A stretch of 64,000 bases of DNA from Methanocella arvoryzae MRE50. GTDB taxonomy: Archaea > Halobacteriota > Methanocellia > Methanocellales > Methanocellaceae. Position 1 is the stretch's first letter; the number at the start of each line of letters is the position of its first letter. Positions 5,984 through 48,541 of the stretch are shown piece by piece. The position numbers and the translations under genes are program-made. Below the pieces are notes generated by a model. That model was not told the DNA's origin, ran no database searches, and saw nothing but the letters and a program-made list of their open reading frames with translations. The stretch spans positions 1,798,001 through 1,862,000 of the forward strand of contig NC_009464.1 in assembly GCF_000063445.1 (NCBI RefSeq). The letters are read 5' to 3'.

Positions 5984-6507
5984 TGAAGGTGGCAGTTGGC
6001 ACCGTGAACCCGGTCAAGGTCAACGCGGTCAAAAACGTGTTCGGCAAGCTGTTTGACAACGTAGAGGTCGAAGGCCGCAAGGTCGGCTCGGGCGTGCCCG
6101 ACCAGCCCTTCGGATCCGAGACCATCAAGGGCGCCATCAACCGCGCCAAAAACGCTTACAGAACAGGAGATTACGACTACGGCGTCGGCATCGAGGCCGG
6201 CCTGACCGACGTGGAAGGCTACGTGTTAGACATCCAGTTCTGCGCCGTCTTCGACGGCCTGGACTGCACGACAGGCTGCGGCAGCGGCTTCCAGTACCCG
6301 CCCACAGTCCTCGCCGAAGTGCTCACCGGCAGAGAAGTCGGCGACGTCATGAGCGAACTCACGGGCATTGAGAATTTAGGACAGAAGATGGGCGCTATTG
6401 GTTATTTATCCCGTGGTATGCTGGATCGTACTCAGTTAACAGAGCAGAGCGTCCTCATGGCCATGATACCCCGGCTCAATCCAAAGCTGTACAGGCAGAT
6501 AGACTAA
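5983..6507 (+). CDS. Inosine/xanthosine triphosphatase, DUF84 (YjjX-like)
   Basis: Cleans the nucleotide pool by hydrolysing non-canonical purine triphosphates such as ITP and XTP. At 174 residues it has family length. It begins MKVAVGTVNPVK, the nucleotide-binding start of the DUF84/YjjX family, and contains GVGIEAGL and LSRGMLDR further on. The ATG overlaps the coaD stop codon (TGATG). Last gene of the operon; downstream is repeat DNA and then a gene on the opposite strand. Confidence 0.9.
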   Translation: MKVAVGTVNPVKVNAVKNVFGKLFDNVEVEGRKVGSGVPDQPFGSETIKGAINRAKNAYRTGDYDYGVGIEAGLTDVEGYVLDIQFCAVFDGLDCTTGCGSGFQYPPTVLAEVLTGREVGDVMSELTGIENLGQKMGAIGYLSRGMLDRTQLTEQSVLMAMIPRLNPKLYRQID

Positions 6508-6560
6508 AAACACCTTTTTATCCATTGCCTCAGACTAACCACCACGGCATGAGGCTGTTT

Positions 6561-6780
6561 TACCACAGAGGCACAGAGACGCACAGAGGTTCACGGAGTA
6601 CTGGTTTTACCACAGAGGCACAGAGATTCACAGAGACGCACAAAGGCTTACTAAATTATTAGAGATTATCAATCCAGATCATAAAAAAACTCTGTGTTTC
6701 TCTGTGCCTCTGTGGTTAACCGCTCTCTGTGTTTCTCTGTGCCTCTGTGGTGAATAGTACTCTGTATGTCTCGGTGGTGA
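6561..6780. repeat. ACCACAGAGGCACAGAG repeat cluster
   Basis: About 220 bases made of variants of ACCACAGAGGCACAGAG in forward orientation (6561-6650) followed by the complement CTCTGTGCCTCTGTGGT (6690-6755). The two blocks form a large imperfect palindrome between convergent genes. No open frame of interest is present. Similar motifs are scattered in many prokaryotic genomes; function unknown. Confidence 0.75.
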
Positions 6781-6790
6781 AATCGATATC

Positions 6791-7393
6791 TTATATGTCG
6801 CCAGGCGCTCGTTTAGACACACACGGGCTGTTTTTGTCATAGAACCGCCACGGCCGTAGCGCATCTTCGCCGGCGTAGTCGACGCCGATTCTCGGGCAGG
6901 CGACGATCTTCTTCACTGCCGGCCCGTCCTCGACGTACAGCTCGCCTGAAGCGCAGACGTCGGCGCCGTTTAGGGCTCTGGTAATGCTCATGGCGCCGCA
7001 CAGCTTGCCGGGCCCGGAGGCGATCTCATGGTGCTTTCTGGCCTTCGGGCGGAGGGAGGACATGATCTCCTCCCCCTCGATCGGCTCGCCTGCCCTGATG
7101 AGGACTGCGGCGGGGTAGCCGTCTTTCTCCGTTACGAGATTGAGGCAGTTGTACATGCCATAGATGAGGTAGACGTAAGCGTGGCCGGGCTGGCCGAACA
7201 TTACCCGGTTACGGGCTGTCATGCCCTTGCTGGCGTGGCAGGCTTTGTCGTTTTCACCGATATATGCCTCGGTCTCGACGATTCTCAGGGCGACTCTGCC
7301 AGCAGGGAGTTGCCGGACGAGGGTTTTGCCGAGCAGGTCTCTGGCTACCTCGAGCGTGGGCCGATCGTAGAAATCTCGGGGCAGTACTGGCAT
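6791..7393 (-). CDS. DNA-3-methyladenine glycosylase, AAG/MPG family
   Basis: Removes alkylated and deaminated purines from DNA as the first step of base excision repair. The 200-residue protein has the AAG signature: the active-site glutamate in IVETEAYIG, the tyrosine-rich AYVYLIYGMYN segment, and GPGKLCGAM. Length and order match the family. The ATG at 7393 begins MPVLPRDFY, close to the usual start. It stands alone, facing the coaD operon across a repeat cluster. Confidence 0.93.
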   Translation of the reverse strand: MPVLPRDFYDRPTLEVARDLLGKTLVRQLPAGRVALRIVETEAYIGENDKACHASKGMTARNRVMFGQPGHAYVYLIYGMYNCLNLVTEKDGYPAAVLIRAGEPIEGEEIMSSLRPKARKHHEIASGPGKLCGAMSITRALNGADVCASGELYVEDGPAVKKIVACPRIGVDYAGEDALRPWRFYDKNSPCVSKRAPGDI

Positions 7394-17374: not shown

Positions 17375-17639
17375 ACGAACGCTGCGCTGTGCCAAACCAC
17401 ACAGATTCCACGGATTCTGCCAGGATTCCACAGATTCCTACTCGATAGCACTGATGGCGACGGATTCCACAGATAAACAAAAATATCTGATCGATTGACT
17501 TATGATTGCAATCGGTGATCGAATTGTTAGCGTTTTCTTTCTGTGCTATCGAGTAGGAATCTGTGGATTCAGCAGAGGAATCTGTGGAATCAATTGACAT
17601 CTGTGGCATCTGTGAGGATTGGCACAGCGCAGCGTTCGT
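17375..17639. repeat. Palindromic element with 21-bp perfect terminal inverted repeats
   Basis: A 265-bp element whose ends, ACGAACGCTGCGCTGTGCCAA at left (17375-17395) and its exact complement at right (17619-17639), match 21 of 21. Inside, arms built from CACAGATTCC/GGAATCTGTG and GTGCTATCGAGTAGGAATC face each other around an AT-rich centre. There is no gene inside, so it looks like a non-autonomous mobile or structured repeat (MITE-like). A second copy, split by an insertion sequence, spans 61651-63322. It sits at the right border of the AT-rich island. Confidence 0.75.
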
Positions 17640-17750
17640 TTTGCAGTCTCGGGGAGCCTGTGCAATCAGGTGAGGCACAGCGCAGCGTTCGTTTTGCAGT
17701 CTCGGGGAGCCTGTGCAATCAGGTGAGGCACAGCGCAGCGTTCATCTGCA
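17621..17750. repeat. 53-bp tandem repeat, about 2.4 units
   Basis: Units start at 17621, 17674 and 17727, each beginning GGCACAGCGCAGCGTTC. The first two units are identical over 53 bases and include TCTCGGGGAGCCTGTGC. The first unit overlaps the right end of the palindromic element, so the array seems to have grown from that end. Confidence 0.8.
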
Positions 17751-17788
17751 GATCGACTTTTGACCTGTAACCCGTTTTGGTGATCGAC

Positions 17789-18406
17789 TCAATCAGACAG
17801 CCGCCGGGCATACAATATTGCGTTGCCCCTTTTTCCCACAGGTGTCAGGCAGCCGGCTTTCCGCATGCAGTAGGCCATTTTTCCCGCCAGCCATGCGGGT
17901 CTGGCGGTGGCCGCTGCCAGCTCGCTGACTGTGAATGGTTCGGCCAGGGTATCGGGGATGAAAGCGAGCATGTCTGCCGGCGTGCTCAGCGTCCGTTGAT
18001 CCACCACCTGCAGCAGCCTGCGTTCCTCTGTGACCCATCCTCTGCGCCTCCAGCCCCGGGCGCCGTCGTACCGGCGGACTTCTTCCTCCTCTATCAGCAG
18101 CAGCTCTATCGAGAAGCCGGGGTTCCGTAGCAGTTCAGGCAGCCTCACCAGCTCCAGGAAAGCGTCTTCGAAGGCGCCTCTTTTAGGGGATTTCCTGCGG
18201 ATGATAGGGCCGTCCCCGTTGTCTGCCAGCTTTACGATCCACTTCTCCCTGGCTATCGGGTAGACCAGCCGCACCGGATGGCTGCTTAAGAGCTTTTCCA
18301 GTTTCCGCTTTATGGCACTGAAGTTCCGGGTCTGGATCTCGATGAGGAGGCTTTTTGTGATGCAGTCGCCTCTCACTATGTCTACGTAAAACCCGTCCAC
18401 CGGCAC
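17789..18406 (-). CDS. Conserved hypothetical protein, possibly nuclease-like
   Basis: Not a family I can name. The first half (DIVRGDCITKSLLIEIQTRN broken by family variation, then HPVRLVYPIAREKWI) resembles a conserved prokaryotic protein with a PD-(D/E)xK-like D...EIQ core. The second half looks like a winged helix (LAAATARPAWLAGKMAYCM). The GTG at 18406 is only the first standard start. The same frame stays open and protein-like for 38 codons upstream (TLNEKPLHEALKQWYAQPGD). There AGAGGAGGA stands seven bases before a CTG at 18502, so the real product is probably about 237 residues. Confidence 0.6.
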   Translation of the reverse strand: MPVDGFYVDIVRGDCITKSLLIEIQTRNFSAIKRKLEKLLSSHPVRLVYPIAREKWIVKLADNGDGPIIRRKSPKRGAFEDAFLELVRLPELLRNPGFSIELLLIEEEEVRRYDGARGWRRRGWVTEERRLLQVVDQRTLSTPADMLAFIPDTLAEPFTVSELAAATARPAWLAGKMAYCMRKAGCLTPVGKRGNAILYARRLSD

Positions 18407-36085: not shown

Positions 36086-36294
36086 GATTGTCACTTTCTC
36101 CTGCCGACACTGAACCACAATGCTTCCGCTTTTCCCTCGCACCGTTTGTGGATAAGCCTGCCATTATAGTACATCCCTGTCCCGGGGTACACTTGCCTGC
36201 CACATATTGCACAAGTCTTTCCAGGCATCTTATACTACCACTGTGTCATTTTTGTCATGATTGTCATTTCTTGTCATTTTTGTCATGATTGTCA
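36071..36294. repeat. Three identical 23-nt repeats around a zinc finger-ATPase operon
   Basis: Copies at 36071-36093, 36244-36266 and 36272-36294, on the plus strand starting TGTCATTTTTGTCATGATTG and ending TCA. Each holds three TTGTCA units spaced nine or so bases apart. Two copies lie upstream of the operon; the third covers the ATPase start codon. They resemble iterons or protein-binding arrays. Confidence 0.85.
36091..36228 (-). CDS. 45-residue zinc-finger protein
   Basis: Short gene read directly from the sequence. The product has a CAIC knuckle near the N-terminus, a Gly/Tyr-rich middle (YPGTGMYYNGRL) and HKRC, giving a CxxC...HxxxC treble-clef-like or HNH-like zinc site. It ends basic (VGRRK). 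ATG at 36228; stop overlaps a GTG start of the AAA+ ATPase gene, so the two are coupled. Such small fingers often bind nucleic acid or tether a partner. No family name is offered. Confidence 0.65.
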   Translation of the reverse strand: MPGKTCAICGRQVYPGTGMYYNGRLIHKRCEGKAEALWFSVGRRK

Positions 36295-36360
36295 TTTTGG
36301 ATATGCAAGCATATACTTTACTATAGTCCGTGACGGAACTATTCGAGCCTGACCTGCACA

Positions 36361-37140
36361 TCACTCGTTCGTCCTGTTACCGTCCGGCGCTCTCAACAGC
36401 CACTTTTTCCTGATCCAGGCCAGCCCCGCCAGGCCTGTGATGCCCATGGCGATCACGAATACTTCGATGATTCCGTACCTGGCGTACGTGCCCATGCCTG
36501 CCAGGAGATAATTTGATATCGGCAGCATCCCATCCAGCACCGTCTTATATAGTATCGATAAGGCCAGCCATACGATGGCGTGGAATCTGGCCGCATAGAC
36601 CAGCAGCACCGTGGCGAAGACGTGGCAGAACAGCGTGAACAGCCTCTCGATGATCGGCACCGGTATCATGAACAGCGCGAACTGTTCCTGTGCTGATGCC
36701 GGCAGTGTCGCGAACAGTTCCGGCACCATCAACAGGGCAGCCGTATTGACGAGCGACAGCAAGCCCAGCAGTGCAGCCTCAGTCCCCCCGAACCCGATGC
36801 CTAGGGCTACTGCCTCATCGAAACCGGACTTTGAGAGTTTAGTGAACCGGACGGCGAGGTACGAGATGCCGCTTTCGAGGATGCCCGTCCTCAGGCCGTA
36901 ATAGATTCCAAGGAGGACCGCGGCCGCGAGCGGGGTGAAGATGATCATCGCCTGCTGGGCCAGCGCAGGGCTGATGGTCAGGTCCATTATCAATTTGATC
37001 GCTATGGCGGCCGCCCACAGGATACCTCCCAGGAGGAAGTATACGGGGCTGATCCGCTTCTTGTAGTACCAGTACGCCATGGCGCCTGCGCCGACAGCGA
37101 TCATGCCCAGCCCGGGCAGCAGGTTAAGCCACGAGATCAT
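36361..37140 (-). CDS. YhfC-family intramembrane endopeptidase-like protein
   Basis: Membrane protein of 259 residues with seven or eight helices. It shows YhfC (formerly DUF2324) features: the glycine-rich GIGFGGTEAALLG with its glutamate, and a second conserved segment ERLFTLFCHVFATVLLV with Glu and His. The family is predicted to be glutamic intramembrane proteases related to CPBP/Rce1 enzymes. The ATG at 37140 has GAGGTG seven bases before it. It follows a DUF3887 lipoprotein gene, with the coding ends about 18 bases apart. Confidence 0.8.
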   Translation of the reverse strand: MISWLNLLPGLGMIAVGAGAMAYWYYKKRISPVYFLLGGILWAAAIAIKLIMDLTISPALAQQAMIIFTPLAAAVLLGIYYGLRTGILESGISYLAVRFTKLSKSGFDEAVALGIGFGGTEAALLGLLSLVNTAALLMVPELFATLPASAQEQFALFMIPVPIIERLFTLFCHVFATVLLVYAARFHAIVWLALSILYKTVLDGMLPISNYLLAGMGTYARYGIIEVFVIAMGITGLAGLAWIRKKWLLRAPDGNRTNE

Positions 37141-37640: not shown

Positions 37641-37880
37641 GGCGGAGCTTCTCCTGGCGACAAGCGTAACTTCATCGACGGCAAGTGCTTCTATGTGCCT
37701 GTCGGCGAGATCAGGGAGAACGGCTACGATCGTTCGATATCCCGGTACAAGGAGATGGAGTACGAGGAAGTGGAGTACGAGAAGCCCGAGGTCATCATCC
37801 ATAGGATAGAAGAGATCGAGGGGCAGATATTGACGAACATCGCCGAGCTGAAGAAGCTGCTGGCGGAGAGTAAAAAGTGA
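37641..37880 (+). pseudogene. 3' relic of a type I restriction-modification methylase (hsdM)
   Basis: The frame is open from 37641, just after a TAG, and reads only the C-terminal end of an HsdM adenine methyltransferase: FIDGKCFYVPVGEIRENGYD, then SISRYKEMEYEEVEY and a coiled-coil tail LTNIAELKKLLAE. The catalytic N-terminal 80 percent is missing, and no hsdS or hsdR is nearby. It is a leftover of a lost defence system. Confidence 0.75.
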
Positions 37881-37907
37881 CCGGCTATTGTTCTAATCTG
37901 GTGTTTG

Positions 37908-38056
37908 CAGGCCGCCAAGCTCGCCAAGGAGCCAAGCTCGCCAAGGACTTTGTGATTAGGATCGGAAGATATCGCTAAAATAAATCTTAGCGTTCCATGA
38001 AAAATTTATCTCTTGGCGAGCTTGGCTCCTTGGTGGGCTTGGCGGTATTTTCGACC
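37908..38056. repeat. Inverted repeat of GCCAAGCTCGCCAAGGA type
   Basis: Left arm GCCGCCAAGCTCGCCAAGGA then GCCAAGCTCGCCAAGGA (37911-37947); right arm CTTGGCGAGCTTGGCTCCTT then GGTGGGCTTGGCGG (38013-38049). It forms a large imperfect palindrome in the gap between the hsdM relic and a regulator gene. The short open frame over the right arm is not credible as a protein. Confidence 0.65.
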
Positions 38057-44815: not shown

Positions 44816-44938
44816 ATGGGATGCAACTGCGGTGGAAACTGTAAAAACTATGGAAAGCCCGGGTGCCTGTGCGCACTACGAGACCAGAAAGCCCTGACCG
44901 AGACTGCGGACGATTCTCAGGACCTCGAGTCCGAGTGA
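44816..44938 (+). CDS. 40-residue Cys-rich (metallothionein-like) miniprotein
   Basis: Very short gene with an excellent ribosome site (AGAGGT six bases before the ATG). The product starts MGCNCGGNCKNYGKPGCLC: five cysteines in CxC...C...CxC spacing within 19 residues, followed by an acidic tail (DDSQDLESE). This suggests binding of a soft metal ion. No family is recognised. A hairpin (GAGATGC..GCATCTC, 44697-44713) lies upstream. Nearby DtxR and ferritin genes suggest a metal-handling neighbourhood (inference). Confidence 0.65.
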   Translation: MGCNCGGNCKNYGKPGCLCALRDQKALTETADDSQDLESE

Positions 44939-45032
44939 GATCGTAGCCAGCTCCGTTTCAGGCACCAGCCGCCTCAATAAAACTTCCCGTCATGCCGGCA
45001 CTCTCCGACCAATATTTCCTCCGGTGCCGGCA

Positions 45033-45128
45033 ATGACTGAAAACCGCCAGATTCTTCTTATCCTCGCTGTCCTACTGCTCCCGTATTATCCCGGCCTATC
45101 TATTTATGAGGATGCGGGTTTAATATGA
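45033..45128 (+). CDS. Hypothetical 31-residue membrane peptide (candidate)
   Basis: A 32-codon frame in the gap before the ribosomal operon. GGTG lies six bases before the ATG. The peptide begins MTENRQ and continues with a hydrophobic helix (ILLILAVLLLPYY). Nothing else supports it, so it may be chance. The remaining gap (45129-45205) holds GC-rich inverted repeats such as GCCGGCCGG...CCGGCCGGG. Confidence 0.3.
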   Translation: MTENRQILLILAVLLLPYYPGLSIYEDAGLI

Positions 45129-45209
45129 ACAGCAGCTTTGCCGGCCGGCGTTATCCGGCCGGGAATCAGGTTTCAGCATGCCGCCGGGCATCAGCCCGGC
45201 CATGAAAAA

Positions 45210-45217
45210 CTATAAGT
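45210..45217 (+). promoter_or_regulatory. TATA box of the S19e operon
   Basis: AAACTATAAGTACC is a good archaeal TATA element. Its position predicts transcription starting at about 45237-45241, exactly where the tandem hairpin leader begins. Confidence 0.65.
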
Positions 45218-45240
45218 ACCCATAACCCATCAAATGTGCT

Positions 45241-45298
45241 GGATTATCGAGCCTTATCAATTAGGCTGGATTATCTACCTGGCCTTATCAAAGAGGCT
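45241..45298 (+). promoter_or_regulatory. Tandem two-hairpin leader of the S19e operon
   Basis: Two copies of one motif stand in a row: GGATTATC, a short spacer, then AGCC-TTATCAATTA-GGCT (first, 45241-45267) and GGCC-TTATCAAAGA-GGCT (second, 45268-45298). Each gives a short stem with the same TTATCAA loop start. They lie 25-80 bases before the AAGGAGGA ribosome site. The arrangement suits a binding site for a ribosomal protein or a regulator of this operon (inference). Confidence 0.6.
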
Positions 45299-45323
45299 AA
45301 ACTTTCCTATAAGGAGGAATCAG

Positions 45324-45764
45324 ATGGCAGTAGTTTATGATGTGCCGGCCACTGCATTTATCAACAGGACCGCACAGAAGCTTAAGGAGACCGGCAAAGT
45401 CACGCCGCCCGCCTGGGCAGCTGACGTCAAGACCGGCATGCACAGACAGCTGCCGCCCGCACAGCCTGACTGGTTCTACACCAGAAGCGCCTCACTGCTG
45501 AGGAGGATCTACACAGATGGTCCCGTCGGCGTACAGAGGCTCAGGTCGCTATACGGCGGCAAGAAGAACCGTGGAGCCCGTCCGGACAGGCACGAGCGCA
45601 GCGGCGGCGCAATCATCCGCAACTCGCTCCAGCAGCTGGAGAAGGCAGGGTACGTCAAGGCCGTAAAAGACGGCAGGGTCATCACCCCCGAAGGCATGTC
45701 GTTCCTGGACAAGATCGCCACGGAAATGGTGAACGAAAAGGCTCAGCAGAAGCCTCAGGCATAA
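45324..45764 (+). CDS. rps19e: Ribosomal protein S19e
   Basis: Small-subunit protein of archaea and eukaryotes, 146 residues, needed for 40S-type head assembly. The winged-helix core shows DWFYTRSASLLRRIY, GVQRLRSLYGGKKNRG and GGAIIRNSLQQLEKAGYV. The ATG at 45324 follows AAGGAGGA and gives the usual start MAVVYDVPA. First gene of a nine-gene operon for ribosomal, initiation and SRP functions. Confidence 0.97.
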   Translation: MAVVYDVPATAFINRTAQKLKETGKVTPPAWAADVKTGMHRQLPPAQPDWFYTRSASLLRRIYTDGPVGVQRLRSLYGGKKNRGARPDRHERSGGAIIRNSLQQLEKAGYVKAVKDGRVITPEGMSFLDKIATEMVNEKAQQKPQA

Positions 45765-45822: not shown

Positions 45823-46756
<934 letters not shown>

Positions 46757-46760
<4 letters not shown>

Positions 46761-46909
46761 CTAAGAAGTCGAAGGGCAAGAAGATGCGGTTGGCAAAATA
46801 CACCAACCAGAACAGAAGAGTTCCGGCGTGGGTGATCATGAAGACCAACAGGGCTGTCATGAGCCACCCGCAGAGGCGGAGCTGGCGCAGAACCAGCCTG
46901 CCCGAGTAA
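46757..46909 (+). CDS. rpl39e: Ribosomal protein L39e
   Basis: Tiny basic large-subunit protein of 50 residues that lines the peptide exit tunnel. The sequence [20 protein letters not shown] and the end [11 protein letters not shown] match L39e, with the Trp-Val-Ile core [11 protein letters not shown] overlaps the upstream stop (ATGA). Confidence 0.97.
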
Positions 46910-46924
46910 AGGAAGTGTCGGATT

Positions 46925-47200
46925 ATGGCAGAAGAGAACAAGGCAACTGAGCAGATCTACACTATTCCGCTCAGGGAAGTCAAGGATTACCCCGTGTGGA
47001 AGCGGAGCAACAAGGCGATCAAGGTCATCCGTGAGTACCTCAGCAAGCACATGAAGATTGAGGAGGAAAAGATCAAGATCAGCTCTGAGCTCAACGAAGC
47101 TGTCTGGGAGCACGGCATCGAGAAGCCGCCCAGCGCAGTCCGTGTCAAGGCCGTCCGTTCCGAGGAAGGCGTGACCGCGCAGGTAGTGGGTGCCGAATAA
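46925..47200 (+). CDS. rpl31e: Ribosomal protein L31e
   Basis: Large-subunit protein of 91 residues near the tunnel exit. It has the L31e pattern: [20 protein letters not shown], then [14 protein letters not shown] and [16 protein letters not shown] at 46925 lies 15 bases after the L39e stop. Confidence 0.97.
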
Positions 47201-47268
47201 ACCGCTATTAGCGGTTTATTCATTAATGGCAGCGAGTAAAGCGAGAGATACTAAAAGGCGATTAACCG

Positions 47269-47937
47269 ATGATGATCAGGCAGATTGACTTTTACGGCTA
47301 TCCGTACGTGGGCATCTACGCCGCGAACACAGAGCAGGTGGTAGTGCTCCCGCCAGATCTGCCGCAGGCCACCGTGGACCTCGTCGCCGAGACGCTGGGC
47401 ACAGCCGTCGTCCGTACCCTCATCAACGAGAGCACTCTGATAGGCTCCATGATGACGGGCAACAGCAACGGCTTCATCGTCTCGGACCTGACGCTGGACA
47501 GGGAGGCGAATCTGCTGCAGGAGCACGGCAAAGTAACCCGGCTCAAGGGCAAGATGACCGCGGCAGGCAACCTCATCCTGGCCAACGATACGGCTGCGCT
47601 GGTTCACCCGGCGCTGACCGACAAGAACATCGAGGCGATCGAGAAGACCCTCAAGGTCGAAGTCAGGCGAGGCACTATCGGCGGCCTCAAAACCGTCGGC
47701 ATGGCCGGATGCGCCACCAACAAGGGCATTCTCGTCCACCCCCGGGCGACCGAGGAGGAGCTCACAGTATTAGAAGACCTGTTCAAGCTCCCGGTGGACA
47801 TCGGCACAGTCAGCTTCGGGTCCCCGCTCGTGGGATCCGCCATCCTCGCTACCACTAAGGGACTGATTACAGGCACCAGGACATCCGGTCCGGAGCTAGG
47901 CCGGATCGAGGATGCTCTGGGCTTTATCGAGGAGTGA
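47269..47937 (+). CDS. eif6: Translation initiation factor aIF6
   Basis: Anti-association factor of 222 residues that keeps the large ribosomal subunit from joining too early. The pentein fold appears as repeated segments, for example GIYAANTEQVVVLP, VANDTAALVHP-like LANDTAALVHPALTDKN, GMAGCATNKGILVHP and GSAILATTKGLITG. Start ATG 47269 or the next ATG. An inverted repeat (TAAACCGCTATTAGCGGTTTA, 47198-47218) sits between L31e and this gene. Confidence 0.96.
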   Translation: MMIRQIDFYGYPYVGIYAANTEQVVVLPPDLPQATVDLVAETLGTAVVRTLINESTLIGSMMTGNSNGFIVSDLTLDREANLLQEHGKVTRLKGKMTAAGNLILANDTAALVHPALTDKNIEAIEKTLKVEVRRGTIGGLKTVGMAGCATNKGILVHPRATEEELTVLEDLFKLPVDIGTVSFGSPLVGSAILATTKGLITGTRTSGPELGRIEDALGFIEE

Positions 47938-47944
47938 ATTCATT

Positions 47945-48121
47945 ATGGCTAAATTCGTAGTGCAGGGATCCTTCCAGGCCGGCGTCCAGCGGGAGAAGTT
48001 CTCCGTGGAAGTCGAGGCCGTGAATGCCAGGAACGCCGAGGAGAAGGTTTACACCACCTTCGGCAGCAAGCACAAGGTCGAGCGCCGGCTGATCAAGATC
48101 GAGTCCGTGAAAGAGGCGTAA
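47945..48121 (+). CDS. rplX: Ribosomal protein L18Ae / LX
   Basis: Archaeal LX (one repeat of eukaryotic L18a/L20a), 58 residues: FVVQGSFQAGVQREKFSVEV and AEEKVYTTFGSKHKVERRLI. The ATG at 47945 lies seven bases after the aIF6 stop. Confidence 0.95.
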   Translation: MAKFVVQGSFQAGVQREKFSVEVEAVNARNAEEKVYTTFGSKHKVERRLIKIESVKEA

Positions 48122-48124
48122 GCC

Positions 48125-48541
48125 ATGGCAGCCGAGGCAAATGAGGACCAGATTCGCGAACTAGTCGCGAAGATGCAGGCCTACCAGGGCCGCATGGAGG
48201 CGCTGCAGCAGCAGGCTAACCTGATCCAGGCCTCCATCAACGACGTGGACTCCGCCCTCAAGGCGATCACCTCTCTGGAAGGCGCCGGCGAAGGCCACGA
48301 ACTGCTGGTTCCCATCGGCGCCGGCTCGTTCGTCCACGCGACCATCGCGAAGCCGGACAAGGTGCTCGTCGGCCTGGGCGCGGACATCAGCGTCGAGCGG
48401 ACCGTCGCCGACGCCCGGAAAATTTTCCAGGCGAGGCGCACCGAGCTTGAAAAAGCCCTGGCCGAGACCAACGGCGTCCTCAACAAGGTCGCCGGAGAGC
48501 TCATGAGGCTCCAGCAAGAGGCTGAGAAATACAGACAATAG
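48125..48541 (+). CDS. pfdA: Prefoldin subunit alpha
   Basis: Subunit of the hexameric prefoldin chaperone that passes unfolded proteins to the chaperonin. Its 138 residues form two coiled-coil helices (about 8-50 and 95-138) joined by the beta hairpins [15 protein letters not shown] and [14 protein letters not shown], the standard GimC-alpha pattern. The gene follows LX by three bases. Confidence 0.95.

Follow-up and report, generated by a model that had tools for sequence, protein, structure and literature searches.

The start of the ribosomal protein S19e operon in Methanocella arvoryzae MRE50 carries a tandem motif of 20-nt repeat units, whose presence, uniqueness in the genome, promoter position and conservation in one congener can be read directly from the sequence. 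A regulatory role is suggested by the restriction of the motif to this operon and by the strong conservation of its first part in the congener. We tentatively interpret the motif, at somewhat less than an even chance, as a dedicated cis-regulatory element of the S19e operon that would act mainly as DNA, i.e., as a repeat-unit operator or initiator lying across the start site. The whole stretch analyzed, referred to as the window, is 64,000 nt long and belongs to a genome (G000) with a single contig of 3,179,916 bases. Four genomes of its class were compared: the window's own, the sole other Methanocella in the comparison (G002) and two other genera of the same family (G001 and G003).

The S19e locus and its promoter core

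The motif is located at the predicted transcript start of the rps19e operon, as the preliminary description had placed it, with a TATA box upstream and operon genes identified by Pfam.

45204-45218, plus strand: BRE/TATA promoter core, GAAAAACTATAAGTA; exact at S19e in G000, G002 and G003
45302-45319, plus strand: short hairpin covering the Shine-Dalgarno sequence (CUUUCC...GGAGGAA), from folding
45324-45764, plus strand: rps19e, first gene of the operon (Pfam PF01090, E = 1.3e-55)
45826-46161, plus strand: PDCD5-type gene (Pfam dsDNA_bind, PF01984, E = 6.2e-30), second gene of the operon
46158-48541, plus strand: remaining operon, with DUF7411, L39e, L31e, eIF6, L18Ae and prefoldin (Pfam)

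Judging from their spacing, the genes are probably co-transcribed, and the product of the PDCD5-type gene is a candidate regulator of the operon. Transcription is predicted to start near 45237-45241, a position placed from the TATA box at 45204-45218. In Methanolobus psychrophilus, BRE/TATA elements are about 19-22 nt from transcript starts, according to the accessible part of the source (PMC5378194). Within the hairpin covering the Shine-Dalgarno sequence, CTTTCC and AAGGAGGAATCAG are identical in G002. Upstream of the S19e promoter lies a cysteine-rich small ORF of 40 residues (44816-44938) with no Pfam match.

The S19e promoter of G001 is a one-letter variant (AAAAAG) of GAAAAACTATAAGTA. 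Promoters of the GAAAAACTATAAGTA type also precede rRNA-like and tRNA-like transcripts of M. arvoryzae (transcript identity read by eye), with short G+C-rich inverted repeats found at a similar distance in the rRNA-like transcripts, again judged by eye. Both observations would fit an extended initiator combined with a 5'-end stabilizing hairpin, at a very strong promoter working without a specific regulator. We consider this explanation unlikely, because such a role does not need the 43 of 44 identical bases that are shared with the congener (see below), and no sequence is common to the rRNA-like leaders and the S19e leader. Among the rRNA-like operons, L100, L103, L115, L101, L104 and L098 have a common GAAAAACTATAARTA promoter, and shortly downstream of the predicted start they carry short inverted repeats rich in G+C.

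Repeat units and hairpins in the leader

The tandem hairpin motif reported in the preliminary description is real: GCCTTATCNNNNAGGC occurs exactly twice in the genome, both times in the S19e leader and 31 nt apart. The 26 further matches in the genome have one mismatch each, and the octamer GGATTATC alone is common, with 86 occurrences. Within the leader, the sequence TGGATTATC is found at 45240 and 45267. The extent of the repeat had been drawn too narrowly, since the first unit starts at 45229 rather than at 45237 and a third, decayed copy follows at 45287.

45229-45248, unstranded: repeat unit copy 1, ATCAAATGTGCTGGATTATC; its first base precedes the predicted transcript start; 20 of 20 bases identical in G002
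45251-45266, plus strand: hairpin 1, GCCU-UAUCAAUU-AGGC (GCCTTATCAATTAGGC), from folding and exact match
45256-45275, unstranded: repeat unit copy 2, ATCAATTAGGCTGGATTATC, 85% identical to copy 1, from repeat search
45282-45297, plus strand: hairpin 2, GCCU-UAUCAAAG-AGGC (GCCTTATCAAAGAGGC), from folding and exact match
45287-45306, unstranded: repeat unit copy 3, decayed (65%); absent from G002

The 20-nt units are spaced by 27 and 31 nt, and the two hairpins form where the terminal GCCT of one unit meets the AGGC of the next. Of 2000 dinucleotide shuffles of the region, 0.1% score as high as its best direct repeat of 20 nt (17 of 20 bases at a spacing of 27). An equal score is found in 24 of the 1359 tiles of the whole window, so the direct repeat alone is not rare and is unremarkable here; Tandem Repeats Finder gave no report for it. 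Strong 20-nt direct repeats (17-20 of 20) are also present in other window tiles, at 6486-6815, 17578-17813, 36190-36378 and 37647-38023. The hexamer ATCRAW, which was picked post hoc, has three copies in G000 at spacings of 27 and 31 (shuffle P = 0.0004) and four copies in G002 at spacings of 27, 17 and 17 (shuffle P = 0.0036).

Conservation in Methanocella and in the class

45224-45267, unstranded: block conserved in the congener G002; 43 of 44 bases identical, the sole change being A to G at 45259

Comparison with the congener covered 58 of the 64 kb. Among the 110 matches listed (14 + 81 + 15), the S19e promoter block ranks first in identity with 93%, followed by tRNA-Pro with 89%. The similarity ends after 45267 and resumes at the Shine-Dalgarno region; of copy 2, the initial 12 bases are retained in the congener with one change, and the remainder mostly is not. 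The pattern at 45228-45249 has a single occurrence in each of the two Methanocella genomes, both at S19e, and is absent from G001 and G003 with up to three mismatches allowed. A lack of conservation in relatives, named beforehand as counting against the motif, is thus seen outside the genus (in two of the four class genomes), whereas the motif is conserved within it. No convincing paralogous copy of the leader was found in the four class genomes. Matches outside S19e with E ≤ 1 were rejected as paralogues, namely L041 (where a short ORF adjacent to a methylase-like gene ends), L042 (within an NrdD-like ORF), L044, L045 (an rRNA-like promoter) and L047 (an inverted repeat after a small gene), where the identities were named by eye.

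The lack of conservation of copies 2 and 3 in the congener and the equal-scoring direct repeats elsewhere in the window could also be explained by a mostly neutral history, in which promoter-proximal DNA was recently duplicated in place and selection acts on the promoter only. This is quite unlikely, given that the source of such a duplication, copy 1 with its flank, is kept at 43 of 44 bases well past the TATA box.

Two reading frames, one opening at ATG 45234, in the frame of rps19e, and one at GTG 45236, span the leader (45234-45335). A short leader ORF starting at either codon, with its translation controlling S19e, is highly improbable. G000 and G002 both keep the two frames open, and the one change, at 45259, is synonymous when read in the GTG frame (by eye), but chance alone gives open frames of that length. 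The predicted transcript start falls at or after the start codons, which have no ribosome site; the peptides diverge after approximately 11 residues, and the conservation starts 5' of the codons.

A wider S19e promoter element in Halobacteriota

Of 392 Halobacteriota genomes, 377 were found to contain S19e. On reading 86 S19e upstream regions (27 of the 30 loci L009-L038, plus 39 and 20 others; L017, L018 and L030 were left out because a contig end had shifted their coordinates), a promoter motif near AACCGATAGATTAATCAACCTTATTCC was seen. Within 20 chosen genomes, all nine matches to ACCGATARATTAATCAA with 0-1 mismatch precede S19e; with two mismatches there are 28 matches, two of them placed at S19e by coordinates. 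In the full set of 392 genomes, allowing 0-1 mismatch gives 17 matches, distributed over 17 genomes; 12 of these matches (all three exact ones included) are upstream of S19e and the other five elsewhere. The 12 S19e-linked matches (L162, L164-L170, L172, L221, L224 and L225) come from families f3, f7, f12, f16 and f30. Judged on these sequence matches, an S19e-specific promoter element exists in Halobacteriota, with most genomes having no match to the strict ACCGATARATTAATCAA pattern. In f7, f12 and f16, the element follows the stop codon of the upstream gene, and at L023, L026, L032, L224 and L225 it lies directly 3' of the stop codon of a yhbY-like upstream gene (both by eye).

Resemblance to the wider element was estimated for each class genome. 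It is seen in G003 and G001 (shuffle P = 0.015 and 0.003; position weight matrix [PWM] scores 12.2 and 5.6), which also resemble each other (shuffle P = 0.0002). The two Methanocella genomes, G000 and G002, have no significant resemblance to it (P = 0.25 and 0.29), and G000 resembles neither G003 (P = 0.39) nor G001 (P = 0.86); the corresponding values for G002 are P = 0.02 and P = 0.13. G000 is absent from the 17 genomes with ACCGATARATTAATCAA at no more than one mismatch, and its PWM score is -1.8. A held-out PWM, built from 11 relatives with the window's family excluded, has its best position in 400 nt at 45234; measured from the TATA box, this differs by 1 nt from the place in G001 and G003. 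This PWM is noisy, with 17 window positions scoring at least 5 and the top score of 16.9 inside an ORF, and we therefore do not claim homology of the M. arvoryzae-type motif to the wider element. Because only the position agrees, the Methanocella motif is treated as occupying the place of the wider element, and descent is not claimed. The two are alike in belonging to the same operon, in their comparable promoter position and in their operon specificity; they differ in that G000 has no significant match to ACCGATARATTAATCAA and in that the distance of the wider element from the TATA box varies between families.

RNA folding of the leader

If the motif acts as an RNA leader, S19e, L31e, L39e or eIF6 would bind to one of the hairpins with CUUAUCAA loops, or to both, and exert feedback control. 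The feedback leader proposed in the preliminary description retains its position, its uniqueness to the operon and the strong conservation of its first part. For the 88-nt M. arvoryzae leader, the folding energy is -29.2 kcal/mol (z = -3.18), a value matched by 2 of 200 shuffles; including the gene start gives z = -2.0. The loop is identical in both hairpins, and the pairing probability of hairpin 1 is 0.97-1.0. The stem of hairpin 1 is unchanged in the congener as part of the 43/44 identical block, an invariance that covers two species only, and no covariation is scorable for it because the stem has no variation.

Conservation of the tandem hairpin as an RNA structure, by contrast, is not supported. 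The congener's leader is longer (151 nt), has a different fold no better than shuffles (z = -0.98), and does not keep hairpin 2 or the outer long helix. Its own sequence disfavors hairpin 1, whose stem probability drops from 0.74-0.77 when the first 35 nt are folded to 0.25-0.47 with 50-60 nt, and is 0.0 for the first 86 nt as well as for the entire leader of 151 nt. Rfam gave no match at gathering score in the window, and at E up to 10 over 44900-45500 none overlapped 45224-45323; a weak ZMP/ZTP match at 45338-45425 (20 bits against a cut-off of 39), inside rps19e, was rejected. Mimicry of rRNA was likewise rejected, as GGATTATC, GATTATC, CTTATCA and CCTTATC are absent from 6 kb of the organism's own rRNA-like operon, a stretch that may not include a complete 23S gene since the usual 3' motif was not found there. 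The best matches between the leader and these 6 kb are 8 nt exact or 11 of 12. With no rRNA resemblance and no Rfam match, and with a congener that lacks hairpin 2 and the outer helix, we regard the RNA leader as rather doubtful.

Four candidate archaeal ribosomal-protein leaders (eL15, L4 and two S15) were described by Eckert and Weinberg (2020; PMC7247131), and S19e is not named in the accessible part of their leader text. The S19e element is like these leaders in preceding an archaeal ribosomal-protein operon and in the feedback hypothesis. However, as far as that part of the source goes, their leaders rest on covariation and some mimic rRNA, whereas the S19e element has an invariant stem, no rRNA resemblance and conservation starting 5' of the predicted RNA. 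L7Ae controls archaeal transcripts through k-turns (PMC5539422, accessible part), a parallel in that a ribosomal protein acts on archaeal mRNA, but no k-turn was seen by eye in the S19e leader. No archaeal S19e promoter element or leader was found in the open-access literature.

Methanosarcina-type relatives do have a covarying hairpin in the S19e leader, which favors an RNA role, but its loop UUGAGUCC is absent from the M. arvoryzae leader. This hairpin is located after CCAGC and has the near-invariant loop YUUGAGUCC with compensatory stem changes (L025, L028, L031, L033, L035, L120, L121, L123-L125, L130, L131, L186, L187, L189 and L190). Among nine distinct rows, which are related and for which the stem was chosen by eye, all 36 cells pair, three of the four pairs change on both sides, and covariation is 0.556 compared with 0.155 when shuffled; slid controls fail. 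L188 (in a different register) and L012 were left out. TTGAGTCC occurs in 17 of the 86 S19e upstream regions, 16 of them Methanosarcina-type and one from G001, and not in the window. Rfam had no match in the 12 relatives scanned. The YUUGAGUCC hairpin is a candidate S19e leader RNA distinct from the motif in the window.

A putative DNA operator across the start site

The S19e element is more likely a DNA switch than an RNA hairpin switch. Both copy 1 and the conserved block already start 10-16 nt before the predicted transcript start, within presumably untranscribed DNA. ATCRAW is retained between the two Methanocella genomes while spacing and structure change, and the block stands above tRNA-Pro and all other listed matches over 58 kb. 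Moreover, the motif is unique to its operon, and the S19e promoters of relatives have an operon-specific element at a comparable place. These observations argue for action as DNA.

Several points weigh against it. The start is a predicted one, and if transcription began 10 nt further 5', copy 1 would be part of the RNA. Copy spacings of 27 and 31 do not correspond to a uniform number of helical turns, the M. arvoryzae RNA fold beats most shuffles, and neither Methanocella genome has a significant match to the wider S19e element. That element follows an upstream stop codon in f7, f12 and f16, so it may have an RNA role as well. Constraint on DNA and on RNA is inseparable by covariation, since the sequence is carried by two species only.

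Archaeal repressor operators may overlap the TATA box or the start site. The S19e element is like them in having repeated sites over the predicted start, at one operon only and conserved past the core promoter in one congener; it differs in its irregular spacing and in being a putative operator known from sequence alone. Under the DNA-operator interpretation, units with the core ATC[A/G]A-N6-GCTGGATTATC would extend from approximately 11 nt upstream of the predicted start into the leader, and a sequence-specific protein is proposed to bind them. As the units overlap the start site, the bound protein could block or tune initiation at a strong stable-RNA-type promoter, and the supply of S19e, L39e, L31e and eIF6 would thereby track ribosome demand. 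Hairpins 1 and 2 may simply result from the repeat, or may serve as a secondary structure at the 5' end. In this model, we infer the start site, the binding of a protein, the repression and the signal.

S19e is winged-helix-like, and naming S19e or the PDCD5-type protein as the binder of the repeat units is a guess. It is distinctly improbable that one S19e promoter element has been kept across Halobacteriota families, rewritten and multiplied in Methanocella, and bound by one of these two operon-encoded proteins. If this were true, ribosomal-protein feedback would act on DNA and not on mRNA. Little is known about how archaea adjust ribosomal-protein output to demand, and an operon-specific promoter element of defined sequence in cultivable methanogens offers a handle on the regulator and on the question of DNA versus RNA.
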